49,752 nt of DNA, taken from the IMG/VR virus record IMGVR_UViG_3300035698_006516, positions 1-49,752 of that record; one strand, 5' to 3'. The translations under genes and the position numbers were made by a program. This DNA comes from a virus. The notes beneath the pieces are model-generated. The model saw only the letters and a program-made list of their open reading frames with translations. It was not told the origin of the DNA and searched no databases. Below, in pieces: positions 26,068-42,399 of the stretch. Each line of letters begins with the position of its first letter. Position 1 is the stretch's first letter.

Positions 26068-26538
26068 ATGAAAAAATTACAACACGCTTGGAATATCCTA
26101 TCTGGAAAAGTACCAAAGAACAGAACAATAATTCTTAATCAGATTAAAACTCCTGATGGAACTATTATCAAATCTCTTCATCGACATGATTTCGTCCAAT
26201 ATAAGGACAAAAATGGTCATGTATATATGGTAGATGGAGGAACAGATTATCTACGTAGAAATAAAATCGATGAGGCAGCACCATATACTGAGTTGTCTAT
26301 TTATGACGATGCACCATTCTCATTAATACGTCAATACTATTGTAGAGGAGGTCGTGGAAAGAATAACGATCAACCTCTTACTTGGGTTCCACTTGAGAAA
26401 ATGAGTGATGACTGGTTACAAGCCTGTATTGAGTATAATGATGAGAGAGGATTAGGTGACAGTTTCGCTAGTGCTCAATACAAACGTGAAGTAGTATATC
26501 GCCTTGCAAATAAAATAACTGTAACTGACTTATCATGA
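26068..26538 (+). CDS. Conserved phage-type hypothetical protein, early operon
   Basis: The protein has 156 residues. Its central block, SLHRHDFVQYKDKNG followed by MVDGGTDYLRRN, has the look of a conserved family seen in several unrelated phages, but I cannot give it a function. There is no signal peptide or membrane segment. It is the first gene after the divergence region, 8 nt behind a TATAGT box. Its stop overlaps the start of the macrodomain gene (ATGA), so the two are translationally coupled. The histidine and aspartate in RHD and the DGG motif might be catalytic, but this is speculation. Confidence 0.65.
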   Translation: MKKLQHAWNILSGKVPKNRTIILNQIKTPDGTIIKSLHRHDFVQYKDKNGHVYMVDGGTDYLRRNKIDEAAPYTELSIYDDAPFSLIRQYYCRGGRGKNNDQPLTWVPLEKMSDDWLQACIEYNDERGLGDSFASAQYKREVVYRLANKITVTDLS

Positions 26539-27032
26539 TTGGAGTTTATAAAGAGAAAATGGGTAACATCATTACTTCAGGTTTAAATGGAGAATTTGAT
26601 GTAATTGTTCATGGATGTAATTGTTTCTGTACAATGGGAGCCGGTTTGGCCCCTCAAATGGCCAGAGCATTCAAATGCGACACTTTTCCATTGGAACAGC
26701 AGAATCATCGAGGCGATATCAATAAACTTGGATGCATAGATTATAAATATTATGATCTGAAGTCAAAGGACCCTAATCAGGAAGACAAGAGGTTATATGT
26801 AGTAAATGCATATACTCAATATTTCTATGATGCGAAAGCCAAGCCGGTAGATTATGAAGCTATCACTATATGTTTACGTAAAATGAATGTATTATTTGAT
26901 GGAATGCATATCGGATTACCTCAAATTGGAGCAGGATTAGCTGGTGGAAATTGGAAGAAAATCAAAGACATCATAGTGCGAGAATTACATGATTGTCAAG
27001 TAACTGTAATTGTTTACGATAAATTAGCATAA
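26535..27032 (+). CDS. Macrodomain protein (ADP-ribose binding/hydrolase)
   Basis: The 165-residue protein is a single macrodomain. The N-terminal NIITSGLNGEFDVIVHGCNC leads into FCTMGAGLAPQMARAF (about residues 32-47), the nucleotide-binding loop. IGLPQIGAGLAGGNWKKIKD (about residues 125-145) is the second phosphate-binding loop. Macrodomains bind ADP-ribose and often hydrolyse ADP-ribosyl adducts, ADP-ribose 1''-phosphate or O-acetyl-ADP-ribose. It overlaps the upstream gene by 4 nt and the topoisomerase fragment by 1 nt (TAATG), placing it in one early operon. Possible jobs are recycling ADP-ribose products or countering host defence that uses NAD-derived signals or DNA ADP-ribosylation. 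The fold is clear; substrate and role are not. Confidence 0.85.
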   Translation: MIGVYKEKMGNIITSGLNGEFDVIVHGCNCFCTMGAGLAPQMARAFKCDTFPLEQQNHRGDINKLGCIDYKYYDLKSKDPNQEDKRLYVVNAYTQYFYDAKAKPVDYEAITICLRKMNVLFDGMHIGLPQIGAGLAGGNWKKIKDIIVRELHDCQVTVIVYDKLA

Positions 27033-27922
27033 TGGCACTAATATACCTTGGGAAGAACAAGAAGCTTTATCCACACTTTGATGGATTCAAAGGAAAGATC
27101 AAAAAGTATCCTGACAGAGATAAAGGATGGATACTTGAAGGAGAATTCGATTTTGATGACAAAAAAATGGTGATGAAGATCGGTGATCTGCCACCATTGA
27201 TTAAGTATACGACCTTCATAAACCGATTGAACCAAAAACTTGATAGAATTGGTGATCGGTACACAATTACAAACAACTCCAAGAAGATTGTCGATATGAC
27301 TATCAAATGGAGATCCAGAACATCATGGGAAGAAGCAAGAGATACCGTTGAAAAACTAACTAAGGTCGCTGCGATCGAACAGTACATCTTGGTTAAGAAT
27401 GGCACAGCGGTTGAGTATGATAATATTCATGACTACCTTGATGAATTCCGAATCCATAGAGAGCGTGTTATACACATGCAAATGTCATACGATCTAAAGG
27501 TCTATAACGGTGAGTTAGAGTACCTGAAGGCCAAGAAAGTATTTTTGTTGTATATGATGGAGAAGAAGCGTAAAACAGCAGAGATCAAAACCTTCATTAA
27601 GAAGTACACAAATCCAATGATCCGTAGAAGACTTGACTCGATCAAGCTTACTGCATTATCACCAGAGACAGTTAAAGAGGTCGAACAACTTATTATTGAT
27701 ATGATTGCACAGATAAAGGGTCAAGAGAAAACCGTATCAGTTCAATTGACCAAGTGTAAGAAGCTCGAGAAAGGATTTAAGAGTAAGGGCAAGGTATCAC
27801 TTGGTACAGCATTATTTGAAGTTGATACACCATATCAACTTGATGGTATTGATGTCTTCGATGTTGAGGAAGCATTTGATGAAGATGATATGCCATCTGT
27901 GGATGATGATGACTTTGTTTAA
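27032..27922 (+). CDS. C-terminal half of type IIA topoisomerase A-type subunit, gp52-like
   Basis: The 296-residue protein aligns with roughly the last 240 residues of T4 gp52 (442). YPHFDGFKGKIKK followed by an acidic strand and KIGDLPP corresponds to FPEFRGEVVEIDG...ITEIP. The segment AAIEQYILVKNGTAVEYDN, then YLDEFRIHRERVIHMQMSYD, corresponds to the tower and coiled-coil gate (INEKGKLQVYDNV...FVEVRKTYVQKRID). The whole N-terminal part with the winged-helix domain and catalytic tyrosine is absent, and none is encoded upstream, where the macrodomain gene lies. A strongly acidic tail ends the protein (FDEDDMPSVDDDDFV). Codon choice has more C- and G-ending codons than the neighbours. It may be half of a split topoisomerase or a relic. 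Confidence 0.75.
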   Translation: MALIYLGKNKKLYPHFDGFKGKIKKYPDRDKGWILEGEFDFDDKKMVMKIGDLPPLIKYTTFINRLNQKLDRIGDRYTITNNSKKIVDMTIKWRSRTSWEEARDTVEKLTKVAAIEQYILVKNGTAVEYDNIHDYLDEFRIHRERVIHMQMSYDLKVYNGELEYLKAKKVFLLYMMEKKRKTAEIKTFIKKYTNPMIRRRLDSIKLTALSPETVKEVEQLIIDMIAQIKGQEKTVSVQLTKCKKLEKGFKSKGKVSLGTALFEVDTPYQLDGIDVFDVEEAFDEDDMPSVDDDDFV

Positions 27923-27963
27923 ATTTTATTTCTTACATTTGTGTTCTTAACCTTACACTTTAA

Positions 27964-28152
27964 ATGGTAGAAGTAGTAAAAGAAAAGCATCAAGCGATTA
28001 GTGATGCACTCGAAAACAAATTAGGAAAGGACTTTGAATTAAAAGGACTTGAGAAACTTGTATGGTTAACGTATGAATTCATTCATTCCAAACAATTTAA
28101 CTATAAAGAAAAACAAAAAAAATGGAAACAAAAAATCAAATTAAATTGCTAA
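27964..28152 (+). CDS. Small helical protein of unknown function
   Basis: The frame encodes 62 residues, charged and probably helical (KLGKDFELKGLEKLVWLTYE), with a lysine-rich end. Its last 31 nt overlap the start of the repeat-protein gene in another frame. No Shine-Dalgarno sequence is present, as usual here. The position 41 nt after the topoisomerase fragment and the overlap suggest a genuine coupled gene, but its short length keeps confidence moderate. No family was recognised. Confidence 0.45.
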   Translation: MVEVVKEKHQAISDALENKLGKDFELKGLEKLVWLTYEFIHSKQFNYKEKQKKWKQKIKLNC

Positions 28153-29105
28153 AAAAATATAGTGTTAGCAATTACACAATAGAAAACGGAATAACCATCA
28201 ATGGCTCTTTGGACTTACGCTCGCTTACAACAGTAGACAAAGATTTCCTTAAAGACACAACCATCAACGGCTATTTGGACTTACGCTCGCTTACAACAGT
28301 AGACAAAGATTTCCTTAAAGACACAACCATCACTGGCTCTTTGGGCTTAGGGTCGCTTGCAACAGCAGACAAAGATTTCCTTAAAGACACAACCATCAAT
28401 AGCTATTTGGACTTACGCTCGCTTACAACAGTAGACAAAGATTTCCTTAAAGACACAACCGTTACTGGCTCTTTGTACTTACACTCGCTTACAACAGCAG
28501 ACAAAGATTTCCTTAAAGACACAACCATCAATGGCTCTTTGTACTTACGCTCGCTTACAACAGTAGACAAAGATTTCCTTAAAGACACAACCATCAACGG
28601 CTCTTTGTACTTACACTCGCTTACAACAGCAGACAAAGATTTAATGAATAAGAATATATCTCAATTAGCAATTGGTTATAATGAAAAAAAATCTTATTGC
28701 TTCTTCGATGGCATCTTATCTGCTGTTTTATCTGTTTCCAATAGGAAACCATATACAATTTACACAACCCCGTTTGGGTTTATTGCCCAAAAAGATGACT
28801 ATACAGCACATGGGAAAACTGTTAAGAAGTCAATTTTGGACTTGGAATTTAAAATTATTTCAGAGAAAATTAAAAATGATCCAATCCATGCTGATACAAA
28901 AATAACCATTAAACATTATCGCTTAATCACTGGAGCTTGTGAGAGTGGTTGTAAAGATTGGATGAGCAAAAACAACATCCCGTTTAAAGTGGTTGATAAT
29001 GAAATAATAGAAGTTGAACCAATTCTAGCAAAGGATCTATTACCTATCCTAAAAAAGTCTAATGCTTATGGACTTAATAGATTTGAGGCTTTGATTAATT
29101 TCTAA
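28122..29105 (+). CDS. Leucine-rich-like 22-residue repeat protein with C-terminal ITGACE domain
   Basis: The protein has 327 residues. After a short N-terminus (METKNQIKLLKKYSVSNY), seven 22-residue repeats of the type TTINGSLDLRSLTTVDKDFL-KD follow (residues about 24-177), a beta-solenoid or LRR-like array. The rest is a globular domain with AHGKTVKKSILDLEFKI and HYRLITGACESGCKDWM. I recall this as a recurrent domain of unknown function found after such repeats in phage and bacterial proteins. The repeats are nearly identical in DNA, while variation sits at a few codons. Repeat arrays of this kind usually bind protein partners. The gene overlaps the preceding small gene and is followed by a 111-nt gap and a broken gene, so this is an accessory stretch. 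Confidence 0.7.
   Translation: METKNQIKLLKKYSVSNYTIENGITINGSLDLRSLTTVDKDFLKDTTINGYLDLRSLTTVDKDFLKDTTITGSLGLGSLATADKDFLKDTTINSYLDLRSLTTVDKDFLKDTTVTGSLYLHSLTTADKDFLKDTTINGSLYLRSLTTVDKDFLKDTTINGSLYLHSLTTADKDLMNKNISQLAIGYNEKKSYCFFDGILSAVLSVSNRKPYTIYTTPFGFIAQKDDYTAHGKTVKKSILDLEFKIISEKIKNDPIHADTKITIKHYRLITGACESGCKDWMSKNNIPFKVVDNEIIEVEPILAKDLLPILKKSNAYGLNRFEALINF
28191..28652 (+). repeat. Seven tandem 66-bp repeats
   Basis: Units begin at 28191, 28257, 28323, 28389, 28455, 28521 and 28587. Each holds CTCGCTTACAACAG (or close) and, except in the last unit, AAAGATTTCCTTAAAGAC. Synonymous sites are nearly unchanged between units, so the array expanded recently or is kept uniform by recombination. It lies in frame inside the 327-residue gene; there are no spacers, so it is not a CRISPR. 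Confidence 0.95.
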
Positions 29106-29216
29106 CGACTGGGTGTATTTGGTTCAACAATCAATAATGTTCAGTAGTGGTGTATGATGGTTGCCCAGAAGTGATAACTTGGACATTTGTATTATTAACT
29201 GGATTATTTTAAGGAG
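29106..29216. other. Short non-coding gap after the repeat gene
   Basis: This is the 5' part of a 462-nt stretch without an intact gene (29106-29567). I see no open frame, terminator hairpin or tRNA in it. A GGTTCAACAATC string looks superficially like a T-arm but has no cloverleaf around it. The rest of the stretch holds the frameshifted zinc-ribbon gene and the promoter at 29513. Confidence 0.5.
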
Positions 29217-29514
29217 ATGCCTAAAGAAATTATACGTTTAGAATTTACCAAGGCAAGTATTTGATAGGTCTGCTCCATTAAAGAAAGGACATTTAGCACC
29301 GGAATACTATGGATATAATGGCAGATATTGGAATATAAACAAGTGCAATAATTGTAATTTAATAGGCATGTATGAAGATATGCATGAAGTTAATCCATGC
29401 CCAAACTGTGGTCATAAAGTTTCAAGATTTGGCTCAGGTAGATTTACTGAACTAAATGGTGAAAAACAATGGGTTAATAAAAATGGAGAGATTATTTTAA
29501 AAACTGATTCATAA
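29217..29514 (+). pseudogene. Frameshifted zinc-ribbon gene
   Basis: An ATG at 29217 opens the frame MPKEIIRLEFTKASI, which stops at 29264. A second frame, shifted by +1 and open from 29242, continues as FDRSAPLKKGHLAPEYYGYN and ends at 29514. It encodes a zinc-ribbon-like core: CNNCNLIGMYEDMHEVNPCP then NCGHKV, four cysteines in two CxxC pairs. The second frame has no suitable start codon before its conserved part, so the intact product would need a shift between about 29242 and 29262. This could be a true frameshift mutation, a sequencing error or programmed frameshifting. An AAGGAG directly touches the ATG, too close to act as a normal ribosome site. No function can be given beyond probable zinc binding. 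Confidence 0.55.
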
Positions 29515-29546
29515 TAGTTTACTTTCCAGTCTACAAATAGTATGTT
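29513..29546 (+). promoter_or_regulatory. Early promoter with AATAGT direct repeat (second copy)
   Basis: AATAGTTTACTTT (29513-29525) is identical to the block at 26026, and a second AATAGT follows at 29536. TTTACT (29518-29523) and TATGTT (29541-29546), 17 nt apart, can serve as -35 and -10 boxes. The exonuclease ATG is 22 nt downstream. Confidence 0.55.
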
Positions 29547-29567
29547 AGGATAAAATAACGTACGTTT

Positions 29568-30314
29568 ATGTTTACAGAAACAGAAATTGAGAAAATGGTC
29601 TTCTTTGATTTGGAGACTGTTCCTGGTCATGAGACTCTCAGCGAATTACAAGAAGTAAATCCAGAATTAGCAAAACTTTGGAATAAAAGAGCCGAATATC
29701 TTGAATCAAGATTTGAGGAAAATAAAGGCAAAACCCCAGAAGAATTATACATTGATAAAGCAGCACTTAGCTCTGAGTTCAATAAAATAGTATGCGGTTC
29801 ATTTGGTCGGATTACATTCGAAAAAGACACAAATAATATTTCAACAGGAATTCCTAAATGGACGATTAAATCCTTTGCTTCTCCAAATGAAGAAGTAGTA
29901 CTTAAAGGAATTGATGTAGTCTTTTCAAAGTTCGCATCATGGAAATTCTGTGGACATACTGTTAAAAACTTCGATGTTCCAGTTATGGGTAAGAGATTAT
30001 TTATAAATGGCATGAAGTTACCAAAGGGATTACAAGTACAGACCCTTAAACCTTGGGAGATGCCATTCGTTGACATTGCTGAGCTTTGGAGTTTCGGAGC
30101 TTGGAAAGAAGGATTTACTTCACTTGATCTTATGACAACTGCTCTTGGAATAACATCACCTAAAGATGATATTGAAGGAAAAGATGTAGGTCGAGTATTC
30201 TATGAAGAAAAAGATCTACCTAGGATTGTTACATATTGTGAGAAAGACACATTAGCTTGTGCTCAAATCATATTAAAACTGTCAGGATTTCCGACAGTAG
30301 AAGAAGCAGTATGA
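29568..30314 (+). CDS. DnaQ/PolB-type 3'-5' exonuclease
   Basis: The 248-residue protein carries all three exonuclease motifs of the DEDD superfamily. ExoI is D14-x-E16 in VFFDLETVPG, ExoII has D136 in FCGHTVKNFDVPVMG, and ExoIII has Y223 and D227 in YCEKD, so it is the DEDDy type. The layout matches predicted stand-alone 3'-5' exonucleases related to the proofreading domain of family B polymerases. It would degrade DNA or RNA 3' ends in replication or recombination, using two metal ions. It has its own early-type promoter and overlaps the next gene by 4 nt (ATGA). It may work with the PD-(D/E)XK nuclease two genes downstream. Confidence 0.85.
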   Translation: MFTETEIEKMVFFDLETVPGHETLSELQEVNPELAKLWNKRAEYLESRFEENKGKTPEELYIDKAALSSEFNKIVCGSFGRITFEKDTNNISTGIPKWTIKSFASPNEEVVLKGIDVVFSKFASWKFCGHTVKNFDVPVMGKRLFINGMKLPKGLQVQTLKPWEMPFVDIAELWSFGAWKEGFTSLDLMTTALGITSPKDDIEGKDVGRVFYEEKDLPRIVTYCEKDTLACAQIILKLSGFPTVEEAV

Positions 30315-30547
30315 GTAATGAAGAAATGCTAGAATTAGTTAGAGCTGATAGACCTAGTCAAGTTATAAATGAGGTACTTTCTTTTGAGAAGAATAAGTAT
30401 GGTTTTTATAATGTGAAAGTCGATATGGAGAGTATGTTCTTTAATACTAAGATCTTACATACTCAAGCAATCTTACCGTATCCAGCTTTAAAATACGCAC
30501 AATTATCTGAGGACTACCAGTTCGATTGGAGATGGGATAATAAGTAA
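30311..30547 (+). CDS. Small unknown protein coupled to the exonuclease
   Basis: The start at 30311 (MSNEEMLELVRADRPSQV) is chosen over an upstream in-frame ATG at 30257 because it overlaps the exonuclease stop as ATGA, the usual coupling here. The product has 78 residues and ends YQFDWRWDNK. It holds a beta segment (YGFYNVKVDMESMFFNTK). No family or motif was recognised. Co-expression with nucleases hints at a DNA metabolism accessory role only. Confidence 0.65.
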   Translation: MSNEEMLELVRADRPSQVINEVLSFEKNKYGFYNVKVDMESMFFNTKILHTQAILPYPALKYAQLSEDYQFDWRWDNK

Positions 30548-30562
30548 AAAAATCCAATATGA

Positions 30563-32976
<2,414 letters not shown>

Positions 32977-38865: not shown

Positions 38866-41800
38866 ATGCAAGTAGACACGAAAAATATAACCAAATCTGA
38901 TGAGAATTTAGAAGCGTTATTGAATTATTATCATGGAGATCTTCTCCCAATATCGGCATGGCAAGACAAGTATCAATTAGAAAATGAAGCAACTCCAACT
39001 GATATGCATATCAGAATGGCTGAGAACTTTGCTAGAAAAATTAAAGAATCTGAGAACATTAGATTTATTGGCGAATTATCAGAATATGGCAAGAATGGAG
39101 ACACATTAAATTACGACAAAATCCTCAGCTTATTCAAAGACTTCAAACATATCATTCCTCAAGGATCAGTAATGGCTATGTTAGGAAGTGGAAAGATTGG
39201 ATCACTATCTAATTGTTTCGTTGTTGGTCAGCCTAGCGATTCATACGGTGGAGTATTTGAAAAAGATCATCAATTAGCTCAATTAATGAAACGTAGAGGT
39301 GGAGTAGGAATAGATATTTCTACTTTGCGTCCAGCAGGAGTTCCAGTTACAAATGCAGCAGGCACCTCAGCAGGAGCTGTAAGTTTTATGGATAGATTCT
39401 CAAATACAACTAGAGAAGTTGCACAGAATGGACGTAGAGGTGCATTAATGATAACTATGGACTGTAATCATCCAGATATACTGGATTTTGTAAACGTTAA
39501 GAAAGATAAGTCACGAGTAACTGGAGCAAATATTTCAGTTATGTTACGCAACGAATTCATGGAAGCAGTTAAAAAGGATGAAGATTATATTCTTCGTTTT
39601 CCTTGTACTGAGAATCCAGCATATTATGCTACTAAATTAGCAGATGCTCCATATAATGAACTAGTAATAATTGATGGAAAACAATTCAGAAGAATAAAAG
39701 CAAAAGAGCTATATGCTTCAGTCGTTGAAAATGCACACGATAATGCAGAACCTGGACAAATGTTTGTCGATCGACATTGGAATTATAGTCCAGATGGAAT
39801 ATATCCTCAATATAGAGGAGTAACTACTAATCCTTGTATTATTGGCGATACTAAAATTGCAGTAGCAGATGGAAGAAATGCTGTAAGTATTAGACGCCTT
39901 GCTGAAGAAGGAAAAGATGTTCCGCTATATTCAATTAATCCAAAAACTGGAAAAAGAGAAATAAAAATTGGTAGATCTCCTAGAAAAACTAAAGAAAAAA
40001 CTGAAGTTTGGAAATTATCATTAGATGATGGAAGTCAATTAATTGCTACGCCAGATCATAAAATATTAACTAAAGATCTACGATATATTGAGCTTAAGGA
40101 TTTAAAATCAGGAGATAGCCTATTTCCATTTAATTCATTTAATTCAAATAAGTATAGACAAATCTGTGGAATAGGCAAGAAAATGTCTGGTGGTGCCTAT
40201 AGAAATAAAAGACAATATCGAGAAATATATGAATTTAATAATCAGCCTGTTGATCCTAAAAAATATGCTATTCACCATATAGATTATAATAGCCAAAATG
40301 ATTCTATTGATAATTTACAAACGATGCTTCATAAAGACCATATTTCCCTTCATGCAAAAAATATGATGGGAGAAAAAAACCCATATCATAAACAGACCGA
40401 TGTATGGAAGAAGAACTTTGCTTCTCATCCTGGAGAATCAAATGGTAAGTATATTGACGTAAGTAATGCTGATTTATTAAAAGAAGGCAAAAAAATATTT
40501 AAACAGCATGGAAAACTAACACAACCGTTGTGGATATCTCATGCTAAAAATAATAAGTTACCACAATCTTTATCAAATAACTTTAGATTCTCAACATTCT
40601 CTAATTTTAAAAATCAAGTATCAACTAATCATAAAGTAGAAAAATGTGAATTTTATGGATATGAAGACGTTTACAATATCACTGTTGATGATAATCATAA
40701 TTATGATATTATTACTTCTTGGGAGGATGATGACTATATAGTGTCTAGTGGTATAACCGTAAAAAATTGTGGTGAGATTTTCATGCAAAAGTATGATGCA
40801 TGTAGACTCATAGCATTGAATCTAATTTCAATGGTAGATAATCCATTTACACCAAATGCAAAAATCAATTATGCGCGTGTTTACACCAATTCATATAATC
40901 AACAAATGCTTGCAGATGTACTAGTTGATCTTGAACTTGAACATATAGATAGAATTATAGATAAGATCAATAGTGACCCTGAATCAGATTCAGTTAAAGC
41001 AGGTGAGCTATCTCTTTGGAAGAACATCAGAGACGTTGCATCAAGTGGTCGAAGAACTGGGAGTGGATTTACTGGACTAGCTGATATGCTCGCAGCAGTA
41101 AGTTTAAAATATGACTCAATTGAATCAAAGGCAACAATCGATGCAGTTCTTAAAATGAAAATGGAAGCTGAACTTGATGCTAGTATTGATTTAGCGGTTA
41201 AATTTGGTCCATTTAAAGGATGGGATCCAACTATTGAATACTCAGATATTTCTAAGAATGGCCTAAATGTTTCTGGAAACAATGAATTCTATGAAATGAT
41301 TAGAGTTAATTTCCCAAAGCAATTCACTAGAATGATGAAGTACGGTAGACGAAATGTTTCTTGGAACACAGTTGCTCCTACTGGAACATTATCTATGATT
41401 GCAAAAGCGGTTGAATATCCAAATATTTCAGCAGGCATGGAACCAAATTTTATGGTTAAATACCACAGAAACAAGAAAATCAATAACGAAGATAAAACTA
41501 CTGTTCCTGATTTCGTAGATCAGAATGGAGATGCTTGGAAACAATATCCAGTTATGATGGGAGCATTTAAAGATTGGATCAAAATAAACTATAATGTTGA
41601 TCCAGATACAATTACCGCAGAGCAAGCCGATGATTACTTTAAGCGTTCTCCTTGGTTTGGTGCTTGTGCTCCAGATATTAATTGGAAAACTAGAGTCGAA
41701 ATTCAATCAATCATCCAGAAGTACACTTCACACTCAATTAGCAGTACTATTAATTTACCAGAAGATGTGACTGTGGAGGAAGTATCTGAGATCTACATGC

Positions 41801-42399
41801 ACTCATATGAGCAAGGTCTAAAGGGAGTTACTGTATATCGAGACGGTAGTAGAACTGGAGTTCTTGTGAATGATGCATTAACTGATAAAGAAGGATTCGA
41901 ATATCGTGATTCTGCTAAACGACCTAAGTGTCTTCCTGTTGAAATAAACAGCACAAAATGTAAAGGAACACATTGGAATGTATTAGTTGGATTATATGAT
42001 GGGAAACCATATGAAGTATTTGCAGTTCCTTACTTTACTGATGAATCTGACTTAGAATTATGTAAAGCTAAACGAGGTCAATATGATCTTATGAAAGGAG
42101 ATCAAGTATTCCATAAAGATATAACATCAGTATTAACAGATGAAGAATCTGCTCTTACTCGTATGATCTCTACTTCACTTAGACATGGAGCCGATATTAC
42201 ATATATCGTTGAACAACTTAATAAATCTAATGGTGATATTACGTCATTTAGTAAAGCAATCGCTAGAACACTTAAACGTTATGTGAATGAAGAAAAAATG
42301 TTATCTAGAGCGCAATGCTCAGAATGCAAAAGCACAAATCTTAGATTCGAAGAAGGTTGTATGAAATGTATTGACTGTGGAGATTCAAAATGTGGTTAA
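38866..42399 (+). CDS. nrdJ: Class II (B12-dependent) ribonucleotide reductase NrdJ with intein
   Basis: The precursor has 1177 residues; after removal of a 311-residue intein, the enzyme has 866. NrdJ features include C117 in LSNCFVV, the radical loop NPC-GE with C635 and E637, APTGTLSMIAKA, and a C-terminal WFGACAPDINWKTRVEIQSI to LKGVTVYRDGSRTGVL region. The end is cysteine-rich (CSECKST, CMKCIDCGDSKCG) for reduction by a thiol partner. It makes deoxynucleotides from ribonucleotides, with adenosylcobalamin to start the radical. This suits a phage that must replicate where oxygen is variable. It sits alone after a terminator, with an A-rich leader and no Shine-Dalgarno site. Activity depends on splicing, since the intein cuts the active-site loop. 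Confidence 0.93.
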   Translation: MQVDTKNITKSDENLEALLNYYHGDLLPISAWQDKYQLENEATPTDMHIRMAENFARKIKESENIRFIGELSEYGKNGDTLNYDKILSLFKDFKHIIPQGSVMAMLGSGKIGSLSNCFVVGQPSDSYGGVFEKDHQLAQLMKRRGGVGIDISTLRPAGVPVTNAAGTSAGAVSFMDRFSNTTREVAQNGRRGALMITMDCNHPDILDFVNVKKDKSRVTGANISVMLRNEFMEAVKKDEDYILRFPCTENPAYYATKLADAPYNELVIIDGKQFRRIKAKELYASVVENAHDNAEPGQMFVDRHWNYSPDGIYPQYRGVTTNPCIIGDTKIAVADGRNAVSIRRLAEEGKDVPLYSINPKTGKREIKIGRSPRKTKEKTEVWKLSLDDGSQLIATPDHKILTKDLRYIELKDLKSGDSLFPFNSFNSNKYRQICGIGKKMSGGAYRNKRQYREIYEFNNQPVDPKKYAIHHIDYNSQNDSIDNLQTMLHKDHISLHAKNMMGEKNPYHKQTDVWKKNFASHPGESNGKYIDVSNADLLKEGKKIFKQHGKLTQPLWISHAKNNKLPQSLSNNFRFSTFSNFKNQVSTNHKVEKCEFYGYEDVYNITVDDNHNYDIITSWEDDDYIVSSGITVKNCGEIFMQKYDACRLIALNLISMVDNPFTPNAKINYARVYTNSYNQQMLADVLVDLELEHIDRIIDKINSDPESDSVKAGELSLWKNIRDVASSGRRTGSGFTGLADMLAAVSLKYDSIESKATIDAVLKMKMEAELDASIDLAVKFGPFKGWDPTIEYSDISKNGLNVSGNNEFYEMIRVNFPKQFTRMMKYGRRNVSWNTVAPTGTLSMIAKAVEYPNISAGMEPNFMVKYHRNKKINNEDKTTVPDFVDQNGDAWKQYPVMMGAFKDWIKINYNVDPDTITAEQADDYFKRSPWFGACAPDINWKTRVEIQSIIQKYTSHSISSTINLPEDVTVEEVSEIYMHSYEQGLKGVTVYRDGSRTGVLVNDALTDKEGFEYRDSAKRPKCLPVEINSTKCKGTHWNVLVGLYDGKPYEVFAVPYFTDESDLELCKAKRGQYDLMKGDQVFHKDITSVLTDEESALTRMISTSLRHGADITYIVEQLNKSNGDITSFSKAIARTLKRYVNEEKMLSRAQCSECKSTNLRFEEGCMKCIDCGDSKCG
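39835..40767 (+). mobile_element. Intein with HNH homing endonuclease in NrdJ
   Basis: The intein covers residues 324-634 of the precursor. It starts with C324 (CIIGDTKIAVADG, block A), has block B LIATPDHKILTKD, and ends with block F VYNITVDDNHNYDI and the C-terminal YIVSSGITVKN before C635. The endonuclease domain is of HNH type: YAIHHIDYNSQNDSIDNLQ with H470/H471, then LHKDHISLH. The insertion is in the sequence NPCGE, directly before the catalytic cysteine, a favoured site in reductases. The residue before the last asparagine is lysine, whereas most inteins have histidine there, so splicing may be slower or use another assisting residue. Confidence 0.9.

Follow-up and report, generated by a model that had tools for sequence, protein, structure and literature searches.

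The repeat gene and its product

The window analyzed here is the whole of the IMG/VR virus record IMGVR_UViG_3300035698_006516, a single contig of 49,752 bases. It contains, in one copy, a repeat-protein gene of 327 codons (28122–29105, + strand), whose product consists of an N-terminal cap, seven 22-residue leucine-rich repeat (LRR) units and a C-terminal domain with the motif ITGAC. The cap (METKNQIKLLKKYSVSNYTIENG; 28122–28190, + strand) forms a helix over residues 2–12 in the AlphaFold2 model. It is followed by seven 66-bp units on the + strand (28191–28652), which start at 28191, 28257, 28323, 28389, 28455, 28521, and 28587, that is, at 28191 + 66n, and the last of which diverges past codon 18. 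The true number may differ from this count of seven, because repeats on an IMG/VR contig can be miscounted by short-read assembly (PMC12222747). Tandem Repeats Finder placed the array at 28193–28642 with a period of 66, 6.8 copies, 91% matches, 0 indels, and a score of 753, and reported no other tandem repeat in the window.

Based on a codon-phase split, the unit consensus is TTINGSLDLRSLTTVDKDFLKD, with 22 residues, and units 1–6 differ from one another by 2–8 of 66 bases. The variation is located at codons 4 (N/T), 5 (G/S, once), 6 (S/Y), 8 (D/Y/G), 10 (R/H/G), 13 (T/A), and 15 (V/A) of the unit. Almost all of these differences replace a residue, and silent ones are very rare (AAT/AAC at codon 4). 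The first-pass annotation had described seven repeats that are nearly identical even at silent sites and vary at S/Y, D/Y, R/H, and V/A, which the split units bear out. Codons 6, 8, and 10, termed x1, x2, and x3, lie at 28206–28208, 28212–28214, and 28218–28220 (+ strand) in the first unit and recur every 66 bases; all three are hot across the 85 arrays described below.

The full-length AlphaFold2 model (mean pLDDT 86.5, pTM 0.74) shows a regular solenoid in which x1-L-x2 of every unit forms a strand, the repeating, stacked LxL strand that defines an LRR solenoid. In a plain Foldseek search, LRR proteins ranked at the top with weak E-values (best 0.04). A second structural aligner placed residues ~1–198 onto LRR proteins with Z of 9–11 and more than 150 aligned residues. 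Its matches were almost all LRR proteins, including the variable lymphocyte receptors of hagfish and lamprey (Z 10–11), Slit2, the Nogo receptor, and a designed LRR. The curated LRR profiles of Pfam did not match the window protein, and relatives in enterobacterial prophages gave a sub-threshold match to LRR_14. From the model and its structural neighbors, the N-terminal part is confidently predicted to be an LRR solenoid, as had been supposed from the sequence.

The C-terminal domain (28638–29105, + strand; ITGAC at 28926–28940) is common to the family, so the "ITGACE" domain of the first reading is real. Its conserved motif is YRxITGAC, and the invariant D, H, K, R, T, C, and G columns in 66 aligned sequences suggest a functional site. 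Modeled alone, the domain (pLDDT 87) shows strands, then a long helix, and then short helices. Sequence searches of Pfam, PHROGs, NCBIfam, and the PDB gave no convincing match. Weak matches to the PHROG "tail assembly chaperone" (3 of 66 members, best 6e-5) and matches to DUF4261 (9 of 66, best 1e-4) were not counted as membership. Similarly, the fold search returned no PDB match at E 0.001 and a single BFVD protein, A0A8S5PBF8. HicB/dsRBD-like folds, which have a beta-beta-beta-alpha core, reached Z 4–5.7 over ~45 residues, below the reliable level of the tool, and no HicB Pfam match is among the families listed for the domain.

The ITGAC family and its variable codons

The family search started from a five-sequence alignment of the ITGAC domain. 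In viral contigs, the first scan gave 166 stretches encoding it (79 distinct loci after selection), and bacterial genome contigs yielded 16 loci; with the loci added by a second and a third scan, 164 distinct genes carry the domain. Tetrasphaera phage TJE1 and Riemerella phages CRP5 and CRP6 are among the isolates that carry the domain. Plasmids gave no match. The ITGAC domain is constant, and the repeats preceding it are built on many scaffolds: LPDNLTVGGSLDLRGT, IPEGFNPTVGGSLDLRSLTS, SGSVYVRQGATFTAPALTEV, the BspA-like AFDGNQLTAVEIPNSVTHIG, and short beta-solenoid-like repeats such as ASSGDYAKV and NSSVEAWG. These unrelated scaffolds alternate the same few residues, and D/Y, S/Y, and R/S are the commonest swaps between adjacent units. 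When the array scaffold alone was used for scanning, the ITGAC domain was present in just 22 of 80 loci, some of the others being cut off by contig ends. Several contigs hold two or three array-gene copies with differing arrays (L058/L175, L084, L094/L095, L161/L163, and L125/L144). In L076, the reading frame is lost in one mid-array unit and regained after it (GGGSPARHRYHIAARQPHRRRW), through either a double indel or a sequencing error.

To locate the variation, residue and codon states were counted by column in 85 LRR-type arrays with the motif G-x1-L-x2-L-x3. The outward strand positions x1, x2, and x3 are variable in 73, 76, and 76% of the arrays, respectively, compared with 8 and 4% for the buried leucines between them and 6–33% for the other fully covered columns. 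The neutral silent/replacement expectation was calculated from the codons actually in use. At the hot codons, 300 states are replacements and 21 are silent, where neutrality predicts 61.3 silent states (P ~1e-10, a value that overstates independence because the arrays are related by descent). The remaining columns show 318 replacement and 205 silent states, and because this exceeds the 147.2 silent states expected, the LRR scaffold is, judged from its codons, under purifying selection. Additionally, the combination of Tyr at x1 and Tyr at x2 within the same unit is under-represented.

Neutral replication slippage, with the variable residues merely occupying unconstrained surface positions, would fit several of these features: tandem repeats are inherently fast-mutating, exposed LRR positions are the least constrained by the fold, and over all arrays the silent/replacement balance is near neutral. 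However, silent states at the hot codons are three-fold below the neutral expectation, and the same small set of residues keeps recurring (S/Y, D/Y, R/S/E), unlike in free drift. We therefore regard slippage as an unlikely explanation, and think it rather probable that the phage array protein is under diversifying selection and turns over to follow a polymorphic partner, early in infection and inside the cell.

A directed mutator that alters the hot codons, such as a diversity-generating retroelement (DGR), would also confine changes to set codons, nearly all of them replacing residues. Four-gamete tests disagree with each other: the frequency rises with distance at the nucleotide level, and at the codon level in homogeneous arrays it is flat (0.27 at all distances), with no pointer to crossover. 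DGRs act on a single 3′ variable region, whereas every unit varies here. Moreover, the dimorphisms (TCT/TAT, GAC/TAC, CGC/AGC) are not adenine-specific, and a reverse transcriptase (PF00078, RVT_1) is encoded in just 1 of 41 virus records with the gene, although the records may be fragments; the window record has none. A DGR was accordingly rejected and seems very improbable to us. The array gene resembles phage DGRs (e.g., BPP-1; PMC6199706) in the targeted replacement variation of a phage binding protein, and differs from them in the three respects just given. The sole reverse transcriptase is a 375-aa open frame on the L082 contig (L102), which could belong to an unrelated defence system or to a DGR.

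Gain and loss of units in relatives

The isolates CRP5 and CRP6, which were obtained separately, carry four and two 66-bp units, respectively, and CRP6 lacks exactly units 2 and 3. On the two sides of the array, their DNA aligns over 2,452 and 1,939 bases with 100% identity, and the differences in the compared stretch consist almost solely of repeat units. Close pairs from other contigs behave similarly: two versus five units in L089/L090 (flanks 99.8–99.9% identical), 21 versus 12 units in the translations, or 19 versus 12 when units are split automatically, and different content in L168/L171 (98.5 and 99.3%), and about five versus two repeats in L191/L193 (96.4 and 99.0%). The arrays of L071/L075 differ next to a downstream flank of 100% identity, while those of L079/L081 agree across the shared part. 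Fast gain and loss of repeats, as anticipated by the first-pass annotation, is thus seen in relatives, in which number and content differ between several close pairs with 98–100% identical flanks rather than staying constant; for the window phage itself it is not. In CRP5 and CRP6 (loci L004 and L198), the gene after the array gene also differs (684 vs. 531 bp); a further tandem repeat, of 48 bp, is hinted at there by the offsets of the alignment.

Misassembly of short reads alone could in principle generate such differences in unit number and content. In fact, the array is cut off by the contig end in 81 of the 164 genes. Of the 79 loci, 45 have a contig end no more than 1 kb from the domain on the array side and 4 have one on the opposite side, as expected of long, near-identical arrays. 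Furthermore, comparable fungal repeat arrays are unreliable and prone to miscounting in short-read assemblies (PMC12222747). In contrast, the differences are also present between the phage isolate genomes CRP5 and CRP6 and between chromosomes labeled as complete genomes (15 units in L280 and 6 in L281), and a collapsed assembly could not yield novel combinations of residues at set codons across so many scaffolds. Of the explanations considered, pure artefact is the one to which we give the least credence, far below turnover of the arrays under diversifying selection.

One group from the scan with the array scaffold alone, in enterobacterial prophages (L212, L253, L218, and L280–L283), carries the same type of array, with 4–17 units, joined to a different tail (AAGCFFG). 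Their alphabet is S/W/G at x1, D/Y/H at x2, and R/E/S at x3, almost always with one codon per residue. L253, L218, and L280 have 4, 6, and 15 units, respectively; their downstream flanks are 100% identical (534 bases) and their upstream flanks 99.2–99.7% identical (726 bases). In the chromosome of L280, a six-unit block is tandemly duplicated. In E. coli prophages, the array gene lies just past the repressor gene and beside exoX, an AAA ATPase, and a DNA methylase. The region past the repressor of lambdoid phages is early and rich in anti-host genes.

Several carriers are thus prophages with the array gene near the repressor region, which would suit an array that tells kin from rival phages, as in superinfection exclusion or allorecognition of the HET-D/HET-E style. 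The evolutionary pattern is also that of the fungal allorecognition genes (PMC1805685). The carriers, however, vary widely in contig size, and we hold recognition between phages to be improbable, about on a par with slippage.

A putative recognition role and its genomic setting

Reading the protein as a recognition protein follows from the match of this pattern to HET-D and HET-E of Podospora. In the mechanism we propose, the exposed beta-sheet of the LRR solenoid would bear the changeable residues, mainly Ser/Tyr, Asp/Tyr, and Arg/Ser/His. Whole units of 60–66 bp would be gained, lost, and copied within the array, which would keep the silent sites uniform while creating new combinations of surface residues, and diversifying selection would retain the variants that bind the current form of the polymorphic partner. 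Once the array is bound, the constant ITGAC domain might perform an invariant job, namely to inhibit, tether, or modify. As the partner, a polymorphic protein of the host seems most likely, above all a defence protein that the phage encounters early during infection. If so, the phage family would keep pace with its partner by rewriting arrays instead of using a dedicated mutator, which would point to highly polymorphic host or rival proteins that are not yet known. It would also account for the many phage assemblies that end in the array gene, and the arrays would amount to naturally occurring collections of LRR binders whose alphabet is legible in DNA. The enterobacterial prophage family offers a tractable system in E. 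coli.

Several observations weigh against this reading, in addition to the common descent of the arrays mentioned above. When all arrays, including diverged ones, are counted by state, there is no depletion of silent changes (P 0.6–0.9) because some arrays are old and diverged; the depletion does hold at the hot codons and in homogeneous arrays. Most arrays were taken from short-read assemblies, for which contig breaks are the main caution. The arrays are not always changing, since the E. coli strains of L282 and L283 share an identical six-unit array. Turnover in the window phage would be deduced from other phages, as queries with its topoisomerase part and its exonuclease found no close relative and DNA similarity gave GroEL only. 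The earlier suggestion that the repeat protein tracks a changing partner, itself hypothetical, fits the concentration of replacement changes at the outward strand positions.

HET-D and HET-E, fungal NLRs of Podospora anserina (PMC1805685, PMC12222747), are the closest documented parallel to the phage array gene. In these genes, repeat exchange and diversifying selection give rise to allorecognition specificities (PMC1805685). Near-identical repeats and replacement variation confined to a few interface positions are shared by both systems, as is the unreliable short-read assembly of the arrays; the variation of repeat number between close relatives is shared by relatives of the window gene rather than by its own lineage. 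In contrast, the fungal proteins are eukaryotic NLRs with WD40 propellers, and the phage protein is an LRR solenoid with an ITGAC domain, in which NACHT, NB-ARC, and WD40 gave no match. The variable lymphocyte receptors of jawless vertebrates have the LRR fold in common with the phage protein, according to the structural matches, and variability on the beta-sheet face. They are assembled somatically from gene segments, whereas the phage variation lies between genomes.

Borg tandem-repeat proteins (PMC9879509) likewise have fast-evolving in-frame tandem repeats on a mobile element. However, Borg repeats are perfect at the amino-acid level and often intrinsically disordered (PMC9879509), and the phage arrays are predicted folded solenoids with set variable residues. 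The LRR-like proteins of CRP5 and CRP6, annotated as "ribonuclease inhibitor", have the same C-terminal ITGAC domain and 22-aa units and differ from the window protein in their BspA-like LRR scaffold; the name is an annotation only. A code of the TAL-effector type, in which 34-residue helical repeats read DNA, was rejected, as the units here have 22 residues, beta strands, and an LRR fold; the common ground is the idea of a residue alphabet only.

Each ingredient is known elsewhere, and what is new is that phages bring them together, joining a constant domain to scaffolds that can be interchanged. No phage counterpart of HET-D/HET-E is described in the open-access literature searched, outside which lie preprints and most subscription journals. 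More tentatively, and with considerable doubt, we propose a general swappable recognition module of phages, in which small-alphabet solenoid arrays would be fused to differing constant domains (ITGAC; AAGCFFG) and rewritten by unit gain, unit loss, and block duplication, with a repertoire comparable to that of variable lymphocyte receptors and HET receptors.

The gene neighborhood bears on where such a protein would act. Upstream of the repeat gene in the window are a topoisomerase part and a macro-domain-like protein, and downstream are a PolB-type 3′-5′ exonuclease, a PD-(D/E)XK exonuclease, and GroEL. In relatives, the neighbors include RecT, exonuclease VIII, ParB-like proteins, methyltransferases, and helicases, that is, early replication and recombination clusters; a PADLOC scan of these neighbors returned mostly methyltransferases. 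Hypervariable binding surfaces of phages are classically located on tail fibres, and LRR proteins are common adhesins, so a role in setting host range, as a receptor-binding component or an adhesin, would be familiar for such a surface. The neighbors, however, are replication and recombination genes rather than tail genes, and the window gene shares its strand with nucleotide-metabolism genes, opposite the sole head-connector-like match. We therefore consider a receptor-binding role quite unlikely, less so than a DGR, and retain an early, intracellular recognition protein as the better account.

Directly after the repeat gene, a zinc-ribbon-like frame (CNNC...CPNC; ~29242–29514, + strand) has no in-frame start codon and is possibly frameshifted, which agrees with the broken gene noted there in the first pass, one of the grounds on which the locus had been suggested as an accessory hotspot. 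A 62-aa open reading frame without a family match (27964–28152, + strand) shares its last 31 bases with the beginning of the repeat gene and may be a co-transcribed small gene. The protein of 296 aa encoded at 27032–27922 partially matches topoisomerase IV subunit A and phage topoisomerase II, and the phage enzyme may be split. The phage GroEL chaperonin gene (31330–32976) is the only part of 26535–32976 with DNA similarity to known phages. Finally, the ribonucleotide reductase large subunit (38866–42399) has 1177 aa, with a match to ribonucleotide reductase over residues 29–1176 and weak HNH-endonuclease matches over residues 443–637, and by these matches it likely holds an intein or an inserted homing endonuclease.
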